Positions 1 through 2,671 of a DNA stretch of 50,739 nt are shown one piece after another (position 1 is the first letter of the stretch; the number at the start of each line of letters is the position of its first letter). The stretch comes from Arcticibacter eurypsychrophilus (GTDB taxonomy: Bacteria; Bacteroidota; Bacteroidia; Sphingobacteriales; Sphingobacteriaceae): contig NZ_MDFN01000036.1 in the NCBI RefSeq assembly GCF_001730525.1, forward strand, positions 1-50,739. Reading direction: 5' to 3'. A program made the translations under genes and the position numbers. The notes under the pieces are model-generated. The model did no database searches, had not been told where the DNA came from, and was given only the letters and a program-made list of their open reading frames with translations.

Positions 1-1
1 A

Positions 2-157
2 TCAAATATGTAGTTCATAGGACGGATACATACTAGCGTATAAATTATATACTGGACATTTACCTTTCGGAGCGACAAAAGAAGAAATTTCAAATACATT
101 CTCAAAGCCACTGTTACCTGTTGATTCTGGCAGTTTAGCAATTAATACATTCTGCAT
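2..157 (-). CDS. possible 51-aa small protein, unrecognised
   Basis: A short reading frame from an ATG at 157 to a TGA at 2-4, preceded in frame by a stop about four codons upstream, so it is not the visible end of a longer frame. The product starts MQNVLIAKLPESTG and contains FVAPKGKCPVYN. I recognise no family and see no signal peptide or membrane segment. It is divergent from the 386-aa gene that starts at 227. It may be a true small gene, a decayed fragment, or chance; the length alone does not separate these. Confidence 0.2.
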   Translation of the reverse strand: MQNVLIAKLPESTGNSGFENVFEISSFVAPKGKCPVYNLYASMYPSYELHI

Positions 158-226
158 TGCAAATTTTCATATTAGCCCATCCGCTAGGCCCAGAAAAATA
201 GAAACCTTTTTAAATTTAACTAAAAA

Positions 227-1387
227 ATGAAAGTTACACATGTACTTGGGCATAATTCAAATTGGAATGTTGATAGTTATTTAAACCATGATATAGGAGA
301 CTATTTTCTTATCACAGCTTTTACACATGGTATAGACTATGATAAAAAAAAGACCATAAAAGGCATCTTAAGTGAATCCATGATTGATTTGCAATTTTAT
401 GGCAAAAAATCAAGTGGTGACATTTCCAAAGGTAAGCTTTCGGAGTTCCCATTTCACCCAGCGAATTGCACTGACAGTGAAGTAACTAATGTTTATTTTG
501 ATACTTGTTTAAAAAGATCTATCAAATTCCAAATAGAAAAGGGTTTTAAAAACATTATCATACCGCATTTTTATGAAAATGAAGAAGTTAGTGACATCGT
601 CAGCACAATTAAAAGCATTAATCAATACATTATAAAATCTCGAGTAGAAGGACATAAGTATTTCATGACCTTAGCATTTGCTCACCATGTAATTATTGAT
701 CGATCGAAAGTTGAAGAAATTCTATTTTGTTGTACTGACATGGATATACACTTTGATGGGTTTTTTATAACCTGTGAAAATAAGCCTGAAGCTAAAAAGA
801 AATTAACAACCGACATAAAGATCCTAAGAAACCTTTCAAAAGTATTTAAAACACTTAAACAGCAAGAATTTGAAACAATATATGCCTATGCAAACTGGGA
901 TGCCATAATTATGTTAGCACAAACAGATATTGATTATGTCACGATTGGCACTTATGAGAATTTACGGAAATTCGATATAGCAAGATTTACAGAAGATCAA
1001 AGTGGAGGAGGTTCTAAAGGATTTTACTTTTCAGAAAAACTATTAAATATGGTTAAGGCTAATGATTTAACAATTATACGAGATATGGGGCAACTAAATT
1101 TAATTAGAAACGAAAAAAATATATTTTCAGACCTAATACTGGACCCAGGGTATGCTTGGAATATCCATAAACCCGATGTTAACAAGAACTATTTATTAGC
1201 TATTTATCGACTTTTGAATGAAATTGCCGCCATTAGCAATTTGAATGAAAGGAAGAATTATGCATTAACACTTATTAATAGTGCAATTCAAACGTATAAT
1301 TCACTTGAAGCAAGCCATATTTATCTTAATGACGAAAGCTGTAATTATCATTTAAACGTATGGAAAAGCTATTTGGCTAGTTCATAA
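227..1387 (+). CDS. unrecognised 386-aa protein, possibly TIM-barrel-like
   Basis: I do not recognise the family. No signal peptide or transmembrane helix is visible, so it is probably cytosolic. Hydrophobic strand-like segments ending in polar or aromatic residues recur at regular intervals (SMIDLQFYG near 51, KNIIIPHFYE near 107, YFMTLAFAHH near 144, DGFFITCEN near 176, ETIYAYANWD near 215, IDYVTIGTY near 233), each followed by a helix. This alternation suggests an alpha/beta barrel; that is an inference from pattern, not a match. A glycine-rich stretch, SGGGSKGFYFSEKLL near 259, could bind a phosphate. The gene faces the nuclease/phosphatase pair and overlaps the nuclease gene by 19 bp at their 3' ends. 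The surroundings are more AT-rich than the rest of the window, which fits acquired accessory DNA. A tRNA-guanine-transglycosylase-like enzyme was considered but no diagnostic motif was found. Confidence 0.8.
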   Translation: MKVTHVLGHNSNWNVDSYLNHDIGDYFLITAFTHGIDYDKKKTIKGILSESMIDLQFYGKKSSGDISKGKLSEFPFHPANCTDSEVTNVYFDTCLKRSIKFQIEKGFKNIIIPHFYENEEVSDIVSTIKSINQYIIKSRVEGHKYFMTLAFAHHVIIDRSKVEEILFCCTDMDIHFDGFFITCENKPEAKKKLTTDIKILRNLSKVFKTLKQQEFETIYAYANWDAIIMLAQTDIDYVTIGTYENLRKFDIARFTEDQSGGGSKGFYFSEKLLNMVKANDLTIIRDMGQLNLIRNEKNIFSDLILDPGYAWNIHKPDVNKNYLLAIYRLLNEIAAISNLNERKNYALTLINSAIQTYNSLEASHIYLNDESCNYHLNVWKSYLASS

Positions 1388-2028
1388 CTTTTAACCTTCT
1401 CTGAAAAAAGCATTTGCATTTTTAAATCAATTGGAACTTCTCTCTTTGGATTAAAATGCCGCTGTAGTTTACCATCGACACTAACAGAAGCAAGACCAAC
1501 ATTATACTTTTCAAATAAATTAAGATTTTTTAGTGCAGGTTTAGAATAGTATGCGTCCAATACTACAAATGAATACTCTGCAAACCATTTATATCTATAT
1601 GCTTGCTTCAAAGCCCTTCTCCAATCTTTTAACTTTGCTTCGACAGCAAAATTGCTTACAAAGTTTAGATTATAATGATCAATAACTTGGTAAGTGTCGT
1701 CTATCTCAATTAGATATTCACGTGAAAGAAGCTTTTTTACTGATTGTACAATTGACACCTTTGAACAGCGAGTAATATCAATTAAGCCCTCAAGACTTAC
1801 TTCAGGAGTGCTCTTTACCACCGTATAAATATTTATATCACTAATATTTAAGAGATTATCAAGACAGATATCCTTTGAAGATTGGCTTTTAAGTTCACTA
1901 ACTACTATATCTGCTATTCCGTACCCTAGAGATACTTCTTGAAATATTTTAATATGTGATCTCCTATATGTTGCTATAAGATATTCCTTCAACGCTTCAA
2001 CAAGGTCACTTTCAGCTTGGAATTTCAT
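1369..2028 (-). CDS. PD-(D/E)XK nuclease-like protein with winged-helix insert
   Basis: A 219-aa cytosolic protein. The pattern of the PD-(D/E)XK nuclease fold is visible: an N-terminal helix, E30, a hydrophobic strand with D40 (GYGIADIVV), then the E130-x-K132 motif (FAVEAKLKDWRRAL) followed by a helix with Q142 and a further strand (YSFVVLDAY). Between D40 and E130, residues about 65-118 look like a winged helix-turn-helix (STPEVSLEGLIDITRCSK, then VSIVQSVKKLLSREYL and a short wing), so the nuclease core seems split by a DNA-binding module. The start codon lies inside the end of the upstream phosphatase gene (17-bp overlap), which implies translational coupling. The family assignment rests on motifs read by eye; a nuclease role, DNA or RNA target, and immunity function are inferred. 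The C-terminus overlaps the convergent 386-aa gene. Confidence 0.7.
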   Translation of the reverse strand: MKFQAESDLVEALKEYLIATYRRSHIKIFQEVSLGYGIADIVVSELKSQSSKDICLDNLLNISDINIYTVVKSTPEVSLEGLIDITRCSKVSIVQSVKKLLSREYLIEIDDTYQVIDHYNLNFVSNFAVEAKLKDWRRALKQAYRYKWFAEYSFVVLDAYYSKPALKNLNLFEKYNVGLASVSVDGKLQRHFNPKREVPIDLKMQMLFSEKVKSYELAK

Positions 2029-2671
2029 GTTTAATCAAGATGTATGAGGAGTCATCATTATTTTTACGGCGTTGTAAATATGACAATTTCTTTTCTATAT
2101 TTTTTAATTTTTTAAAATTGTAGGTACTAAAATACTCTTTTAGGTTACTACTCATTAAACTATAAAACCCATCTGTACATATTAGAAAGTTATAATCTGT
2201 ATTAACCTCTTTGAGTTTAAAATCCTCTAAAGACAATTCGGAACTTCCCAGACATTTTGTAAGAATATTTGGTCTATTCTCCATTGAATCATCACTGGTT
2301 ATTTTTTCGATAAATTGATTAGAAAATATATAAACCCTTGAATCTCCAATGTTTACAAATTTGGCTAAACCCTCTATTTTGCTATAAAAAAGACCTGAAA
2401 CAGTACTCATCCCATAGCAACCAGATGCTAACACCTCTTTATGGGACTCGAACAACAGCTCTTCCAAATTATTCCCATCGGATAATACTCCACTTAACTT
2501 TGATCTTAATATCTTTTTATATTGATTTATAAAAGCATAACTACGTGGATGTGAACTCACCCCGTCAAAAATTAAAAACAAGTAATAACCAGGTTGTTCT
2601 GCAATCAAAACACGATCTTGATTTCGGTCACGTCTCAAACCTTTTTTGGAATTTGTTAAATACTTGAGCAT
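2012..2671 (-). CDS. PP2C-family protein phosphatase
   Basis: A compact 219-aa phosphatase domain of the PPM/PP2C family, which removes phosphate from Ser/Thr using two metal ions. The ordered PP2C motifs are all present: RDRNQD (D19), FDGVSSH (D36-G37), MSTVSGLFY near 89, NIGDSRVYI (D110), NILTKCLGS near 136, LICTDGFYSLM (D167-G168) and NNDDSS (D206/D207). The metal-binding aspartates are retained, so it should be active. There is no membrane segment or sensor domain. It is the first gene of a two-gene unit and overlaps the nuclease-like gene by 17 bp. No partner Ser/Thr kinase is in the window; in other organisms PP2C enzymes counteract such kinases. Pairing with a nuclease suggests the phosphatase controls it or responds to a phosphorylated trigger; that is inference. 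Confidence 0.88.
   Translation of the reverse strand: MLKYLTNSKKGLRRDRNQDRVLIAEQPGYYLFLIFDGVSSHPRSYAFINQYKKILRSKLSGVLSDGNNLEELLFESHKEVLASGCYGMSTVSGLFYSKIEGLAKFVNIGDSRVYIFSNQFIEKITSDDSMENRPNILTKCLGSSELSLEDFKLKEVNTDYNFLICTDGFYSLMSSNLKEYFSTYNFKKLKNIEKKLSYLQRRKNNDDSSYILIKHEIPS

Follow-up and report, generated by a model that had tools for sequence, protein, structure and literature searches.

A predicted mobile, phosphorylation-controlled nuclease module with a likely defence function in Arcticibacter eurypsychrophilus

Here, we analysed a stretch of 50,739 nucleotides from Arcticibacter eurypsychrophilus (Bacteroidota; assembly GCF_001730525.1, contig NZ_MDFN01000036.1, positions 1 to 50,739; hereafter the window), in which an earlier prediction made from the sequence had singled out an overlapping pair of genes for a PP2C phosphatase and a winged-helix/PD-(D/E)XK nuclease as a possible defence or stress module. 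The results show that the module is real and conserved and that this pair is half of it. In close relatives, the unit consists of four genes in about 3.3 kb, with the PP2C and nuclease genes on one strand, convergent with a Ser/Thr kinase gene that is followed by a gene for a protein of 386 amino acids (aa), here called the partner. The pair had been described as a system of exactly these two parts and no kinase, which does not hold, as the kinase was found in 7/7 close loci that reach far enough and the partner comes in addition. We propose, with a probability of about 0.6 and from gene content and predicted proteins, that this is a mobile, phosphorylation-controlled nuclease module, most likely an anti-phage or anti-mobile-element (anti-plasmid) system; a function in defence is likely for the module as predicted.

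A scan of GTDB contigs with the nuclease gave six relatives at 50-60% identity. In all six, a PP2C gene lies directly upstream with gene overlap and a convergent gene encodes the 386-aa protein, and in each of the five contigs long enough to show it, this gene is preceded by a kinase gene. A seventh close relative, L053, carries the same four genes; together with the window and L002-L007 it makes up the close set of eight loci. In the window, both 219-aa genes were found where they had been placed, on the minus strand with a 17-bp overlap (Table 1), and the kinase remnant and the 386-aa gene on the opposite strand, which the earlier prediction had not noted, are members of the same unit. The PP2C and nuclease genes overlap by 4-23 bp in 8/8 close loci, and thus their pairing, which a survey of homologous neighbourhoods had been suggested to check, exceeds chance. 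The convergent nuclease and partner genes overlap as well, by 19 bp in 7/8 close loci (window 1369-1387, with equivalents in L002-L007) and by 11 bp in L053, so that along the 19 bp the same base pairs encode both C-termini. Boundaries were compared using open reading frames (ORFs) of at least 70 aa from the eight close loci and contig C24 of the window's genome, with the window restricted to its first 14 kb. For each of the module genes, homologues were present in 6 or 7 other stretches, against 0 to 2 for each flanking ORF. As the flanks are not shared, these results delimit the unit and point to a module that moves horizontally. A Bacteroidota promoter pattern matched twice in the window, no more often than expected by chance, and never near the module.

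Table 1. Features of the module and of the element that interrupts it (window positions, except for the last row)
Feature	Position	Strand	Evidence
PD-(D/E)XK-type nuclease (predicted), 219 aa, winged-helix insert	1369..2028	-	homology, model, alignment
PP2C-type phosphatase, 219 aa, leading gene of the minus-strand pair	2012..2671	-	Pfam, alignment
386-aa partner protein, no assigned fold	227..1387	+	homologues in close and remote loci
Ser/Thr kinase gene, C-terminal piece	30..230	+	hidden Markov model, E 3.5e-11
Codon of D40, putative metal ligand	1909..1911	-	invariant in 17/17
Winged-helix insert, residues about 55-120	1669..1866	-	model; weak Pfam HTH_27 match, E 0.071
Codons E130-A131-K132, (D/E)xK part of the putative active site	1633..1641	-	E130 and K132 in 17/17
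End of multicopy transposable element, at contig break, interrupting the kinase gene	1..29	.	repeated ends
8-bp target-site duplication ATACTAGC, with a second copy on contig C24 next to the opposite element end	30..37	.	contig-end comparison
Kinase N-terminal piece, profile positions 1-202	G000:C24:18-623	-	profile search of the genome

The wider family was found by tblastn and profile searches of plasmids and other genomes. It comprises 24 nuclease-family loci, of which seven (L015, L016, L021, L027, L028, L029 and L031) have no intact kinase-partner set; the others are the window, L002-L007, L053, L052, L054, L055, L017, L018, L019, L020, L026 and L030. A profile scan of ORFs placed the 386-aa family in 17/24 of these loci, plus a fragment in L016, and the kinase in 15/24 (in the window its last piece only; L006 is not judgeable). 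In the remote sets, the partner is present in 9/9 and the kinase in 8/9. A core of nuclease, 386-aa protein and kinase recurs in Bacteroidota, Priestia, Actinomycetota, Polaromonas and one haloarchaeon, Natribaculum, where the three genes are co-directional and a metallophosphatase gene follows. The presence of kinase and partner is partly by construction, because the profiles were built from these same loci. Ascertainment also affects the pairing count, since it was the 386-aa protein that led to L026 and L052. The partner is 63-77% identical in seven close loci; because identity between remote members and the window protein is as low as 13-21%, profiles were rebuilt with one group left out at a time, as an independent test. 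Every group was recovered, both for the 386-aa family (window clade, E 1.3e-13 to 2.7e-18; weakest member, from Kineococcus, E 4.5e-4) and for the nuclease (E 6e-22 or better); this control covered partner and nuclease, and the homology of the kinases rests on Pfam. The module is rare and sparsely distributed. With the window's own genome included in each count, the nuclease profile matched in 5/395 genomes of the phylum, one match being spurious, and the 386-aa profile in 3/400 genomes of the order and 2/395 of the class. Query P0003 gave no match in plasmids at 1e-5 and none in phages at 1e-2, and query A3 gave nothing in viral contigs.

The 219-aa protein of the trailing gene is predicted to be a PD-(D/E)XK-type nuclease with a winged-helix insert. 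D40, E130, K132, Q142, W136, G37 and G178 are invariant in 17/17 nucleases that adjoin a 386-aa protein, and E6 and E31 are kept in 16/17. The residues first read as catalytic thus stand for D40, E130 and K132 and fall for E30, since position 30 is a variable Gln in the window nuclease and the conserved acidic residue is E31. In the best of five structure models (predicted local distance difference test, pLDDT, 88.7), the order of elements is helix, two strands, winged helix, strand, helix, strand. Strand 38-46 carries D40 and strand 123-132 carries E130-x-K132, which gives the D...(D/E)xK arrangement on adjacent strands that a nuclease-type active site would have, and the helix-turn-helix-like insert foreseen between D40 and E130 appears as the winged helix. 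When the model was compared with VIA-align, 3dnx ranked first, with Z 11.7 over 129 residues at a root-mean-square deviation of 3.4, and PaqCI took rank 10, with Z 10.9 over 133 residues at 3.2; these are the sole entries with more than 70 aligned residues among the first ten, and winged-helix proteins dominate the full list. The title of 3dnx refers to a protein of unknown function, which is presumably MmcB-like. For PaqCI, D54, E73 and K75 are described as residues of its N-terminal nuclease domain (PMC10201449). No Pfam family matched the nuclease above cut-off, the weak HTH_27 match being the only one. In L026, L055 (= L024) and L015, the winged helix is absent and the active-site motif is kept, which makes the winged helix look like an add-on to a nuclease.

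The kinases carry the expected marks of their family. PF00069 scored above cut-off in 6/6 kinase relatives scanned with Pfam, the HRD motif (tested as HRDxKxxN) is present in 14/14 kinases examined, one of them with S in place of K, and a DFG-type motif is present in the same number, 13 by pattern and that of L026 by reading. In three loci, kinase and 386-aa protein are fused into one polypeptide (Priestia, 677 aa; Kocuria, 675 aa; G1015, 682 aa). The phosphatase matches Pfam PP2C_2 (PF13672) with 28.1 bits against a cut-off of 24, and D19, D36, D110, D167 and D206 are invariant in a 7-member alignment, in agreement with the claim that its metal-binding aspartates are kept. It is present in 8/24 nuclease-family loci, all eight being the close Bacteroidota set. 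The close-set PP2C profile did not find it in any of the 9/9 remote sets that hold nuclease and 386-aa protein, eight of which keep the kinase, and a laxer run (E up to 10) gave only noise outside the close set (best E 4.9). Thus, gating by the phosphatase alone, the mechanism put forward at first, cannot be the core one. Nuclease homologues that never lie beside the phosphatase had been named as the finding that would speak against the pair; this is the situation in the remote sets (9/9) and the opposite of that in the close set (8/8). In the haloarchaeon, a calcineurin-like phosphoesterase (metallophosphatase) gene stands directly after the nuclease-kinase-partner set (L019 8779-9468), and it might replace PP2C there.

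Kinase and partner are adjacent on the same strand or fused, the nuclease accompanies them and PP2C belongs to one clade. The simplest account would be a sensor-kinase that acts on a nuclease, with PP2C as a brake. As a sensor or scaffold, the partner, which in three loci is part of one polypeptide with the kinase, would switch the kinase. The kinase in turn would arm DNA cleavage by phosphorylating the nuclease or the partner, and in the close Bacteroidota version PP2C would hold the system in its off state or reset it. The sequences themselves show gene content, homology, conserved active-site residues, layout and unshared flanks; from these we infer the activities of nuclease and kinase, which protein phosphorylates which, whether the effect is positive or negative, what triggers the system and which DNA it targets. 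The fuller version, to which we give somewhat less than even odds, is that of an unnamed defence system of bacteria and archaea in which the partners, as a new protein family tied to the kinase by fusion or gene order, would sense the invader and phosphorylation by the kinase would activate a dedicated nuclease, with PP2C in Bacteroidota, and maybe the metallophosphatase beside the single archaeal copy found, as the off-switch. Kinases and phosphatases recur in anti-phage systems, but to our knowledge direct control of a DNA nuclease by reversible protein phosphorylation has few precedents. If the proposal is true, the four-gene unit of kinase, eraser, nuclease and orphan partner would be a small and testable model of such control, and the 386-aa family, unnamed in the libraries searched, would receive its first function.

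The window begins inside the kinase gene because a transposable element splits this gene into two pieces. The element end in the window, 29-31 bases, is repeated at C53, C66, C40 and C21 of the same genome, and the opposite end, on C24 (L056 1-38), recurs on C28 and C17, with most repeats at contig ends. C40 and C28 share a different 8 bases, GTTGTGCC, adjoining the same two element ends. The recurring ends and the 8-bp duplication shared by both kinase flanks indicate a multicopy transposable element in the kinase gene. A tyrosine recombinase-like ORF was seen near one element end on C66 (L012 178-1026). In the window's genome, which is 99.99% complete, there was no further match to the kinase profile at E <= 0.001, and the nuclease and PP2C ORFs beside the split kinase are intact. 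The module may be switched off in this strain, and this kinase-disrupted copy makes the direction of control directly testable.

Defence-type genes lie near several of the loci. In G1015 (L052 4487-13535), the genes for the kinase-partner fusion and the nuclease are embedded in a type I restriction-modification operon, with a type I methyltransferase gene upstream (E 4.6e-195). Downstream, a PD-Lambda-3_A-like gene for 163 aa (E 4.2e-14) is accompanied by a presumed hsdS ORF and by a type I restriction gene (1131.7 bits). A DrmMI-like or type IIG-like enzyme lies near the Natribaculum set, BilC- and BilD-like genes near L054, a type III restriction enzyme and PDC-S06 near L016, and a protein with an HNH-effector-like N-terminus near L002; the scanned neighbours of L017 and L018 gave no match. 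In total, a defence-type neighbour was found in 5/7 loci scanned, the neighbours being chosen by eye and L016 being a remnant only.

Three other explanations were weighed. The unit could be a KKP-like phosphorylation toxin-antitoxin, which we hold to be unlikely. The kinase would then be a toxin directed at host proteins, with PP2C as the antitoxin, and the winged-helix protein would chiefly regulate by binding DNA or be a secondary nuclease. KKP contains two Ser/Thr kinases and a PP2C antitoxin, which a phage protein inhibits (PMC11341870), and a transposable element in the kinase fits the loss of a toxic gene. However, the remote kinases would be without that antitoxin, as PP2C was not found in 9/9 remote sets, and a catalytic triad that is invariant in 17/17 and is kept in L026, L055 and L015 without the winged helix speaks for catalysis over regulation. 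The sign of control could also be the opposite, with kinase and partner restraining the nuclease until phosphorylation is lost upon infection. The phosphatase would then be the activator, which suits the overlap of its gene with the co-directional nuclease gene in 8/8 close loci, but a phosphatase of this kind was not found in the remote sets, and the split kinase, the lack of a second copy and the intact nuclease and PP2C ORFs of the window's genome argue, for this one assembly, that restraint of the nuclease does not require the kinase; on balance this reading is improbable. A role in DNA repair, plasmid maintenance or stress response, not directed at phages, has a slim chance: the resemblance to 3dnx, which we take to be MmcB-like, and the sets on plasmid records would suit it, but the distribution is sparse (2 to 5 genomes per sample of 395-400, counting the window's own), no flanks are shared and restriction neighbours occur in some loci.

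Several observations weigh against a phosphorylation-controlled nuclease module for defence. L054 has partner and nuclease without a kinase. The seven nuclease relatives without an intact kinase-partner set include L029, in which, as one of three stand-alone haloarchaeal relatives aligned, the active-site lysine is missing, and thus the nuclease family also lives in other settings. A lone 386-aa member is encoded on the Gordonia plasmid pGBRO01 (L058 6034-7242), with no kinase or nuclease in the 13-kb stretch around it. The other four nuclease models have a pLDDT of 76 to 56, and Foldseek gave no match to the nuclease model at E <= 0.001, its list being mostly winged-helix proteins with a chain of Nse1-Nse3-Nse4 at rank 1 (E 1.4e-3). 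The six sets on plasmid records are partly an effect of searching a plasmid collection. The defence or stress role first proposed finds agreement in gene surroundings that would suit a defence or conflict module, but the neighbours scanned were hand-picked without a background rate. Finally, the split kinase could reflect a mixture, should the assembly be a metagenome bin and not an isolate.

The partner protein belongs to a family with no significant match in Pfam, NCBIfam, PHROGs, PADLOC or PDB sequences. The best matches were all weak, namely DUF1490 in Pfam (E 0.001, one of 15 members), ribosomal protein L6 in NCBIfam (E 0.0074, one of 15 members), a PHROGs family (E 0.091, one of 11 members) and a designed repeat protein in the PDB (E 0.38). 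Structure prediction for the 386-aa protein reached a pLDDT of 44.8, and this poor model was set aside. The length is 384 aa in L004, and the contig of L006 ends inside the partner gene. Conserved marks of the family are D54 (IDLQFY in the window), P113 and G241. A late CxCxxC near the C-terminus, present in L018, L030, L017, L052 and L054 and absent from the window's clade, is possibly a zinc site. This motif had suggested a tRNA-guanine transglycosylase (TGT). In hhalign comparisons of the family with TGT, the P value fell from 0.12 to 0.02 to 0.007 as the alignments deepened (20 TGT sequences in the final one), and Pfam TGT matched none of the 15 members; because a profile of the unrelated kinase, used as a control, reached P 0.016 against the same TGT set, this identity is not claimed.

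Known systems share some of these parts. KKP of Pf prophages likewise has a Ser/Thr kinase opposed by a PF13672-type PP2C, is mobile and is linked to phage defence (PMC11341870). It combines two kinases, one with a cold-shock and one with an FHA domain, with PP2C, whereas the module here has one kinase with neither domain (none in Pfam scans of six kinases; a single kinase match per locus in the profile scan), adds the PD-(D/E)XK protein and the 386-aa partner and is without PP2C in the remote sets. In vapKSC, an anti-phage toxin-antitoxin unit, a nuclease is likewise under the control of a kinase and a middle protein, but the three parts are a CapK-like GHKL kinase, a STAS protein and the PIN nuclease VapC (PMC13373217), in contrast to the eukaryotic-like Pkinase, orphan 386-aa protein and PD-(D/E)XK nuclease found here. 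The module proteins scanned with Pfam had no STAS or PIN match, the PIN-like protein of L054 described below lying outside that scan. In their logic, KKP and vapKSC are the closest tested systems that we found, and neither contains the parts described here. PglW and DndF also join a nuclease and Ser/Thr kinases in defence, through an N-terminal NERD-REase and S/T/Y kinases; they are single large proteins with a NERD nuclease, a pseudokinase and further domains (PMC12839542), unlike the small separate proteins with another nuclease described here. The C component of the PADLOC candidate PDC-M21 is the best PADLOC match of PP2C (44.9 bits), but the match covers only part of PP2C, and among the matches listed, which for the kinases are 25 of 34-35 families, no PDC-M21A or PDC-M21B was seen for its partners. 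PD-T4-6 and mad6 kinases are the best PADLOC matches of the module kinases, and only the kinase part aligns; a MADS identity, considered through mad6, was rejected as the match is confined to residues 3-302 of 677 in the Priestia fusion. The TerY-P triad consists of a kinase, a PP2C and the vWA protein TerY; it shares the first two, but the module here has the nuclease and the 386-aa protein instead of TerY, and no vWA match was obtained in the module proteins scanned, the flanking ORFs being only partly scanned. In the open PMC library, no publication among the titles and abstract openings listed describes this gene set, and searches on PDC-M21 and on MADS returned no paper. The DefensePredictor report gives 42 E. 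coli systems (PMC13092281), and it is possible that a relative of the module is among them.

Further observations were made at single loci. In L054 (2641-8843), a 148-aa protein that we read as PIN-like stands in the kinase's place with a 386-aa member, convergent with the nuclease; a PADLOC scan of this protein was empty, and an ORF with a ubiquitin-like look lies near the set. L016 (9394-10270) is a broken remnant, with a piece of the 386-aa family and the nuclease frame split in two. L025 (G174) was dropped from the counts, as only the winged-helix part of the profile matched (20 bits). The region of the lone Gordonia partner holds a DNA methyltransferase and a HEPN-associated protein. Stand-alone nuclease relatives, with neither kinase nor 386-aa protein, are found on the haloarchaeal plasmids L021, L027, L028, L029 and L031, and DNA methyltransferase genes lie near those of L027 and L028.

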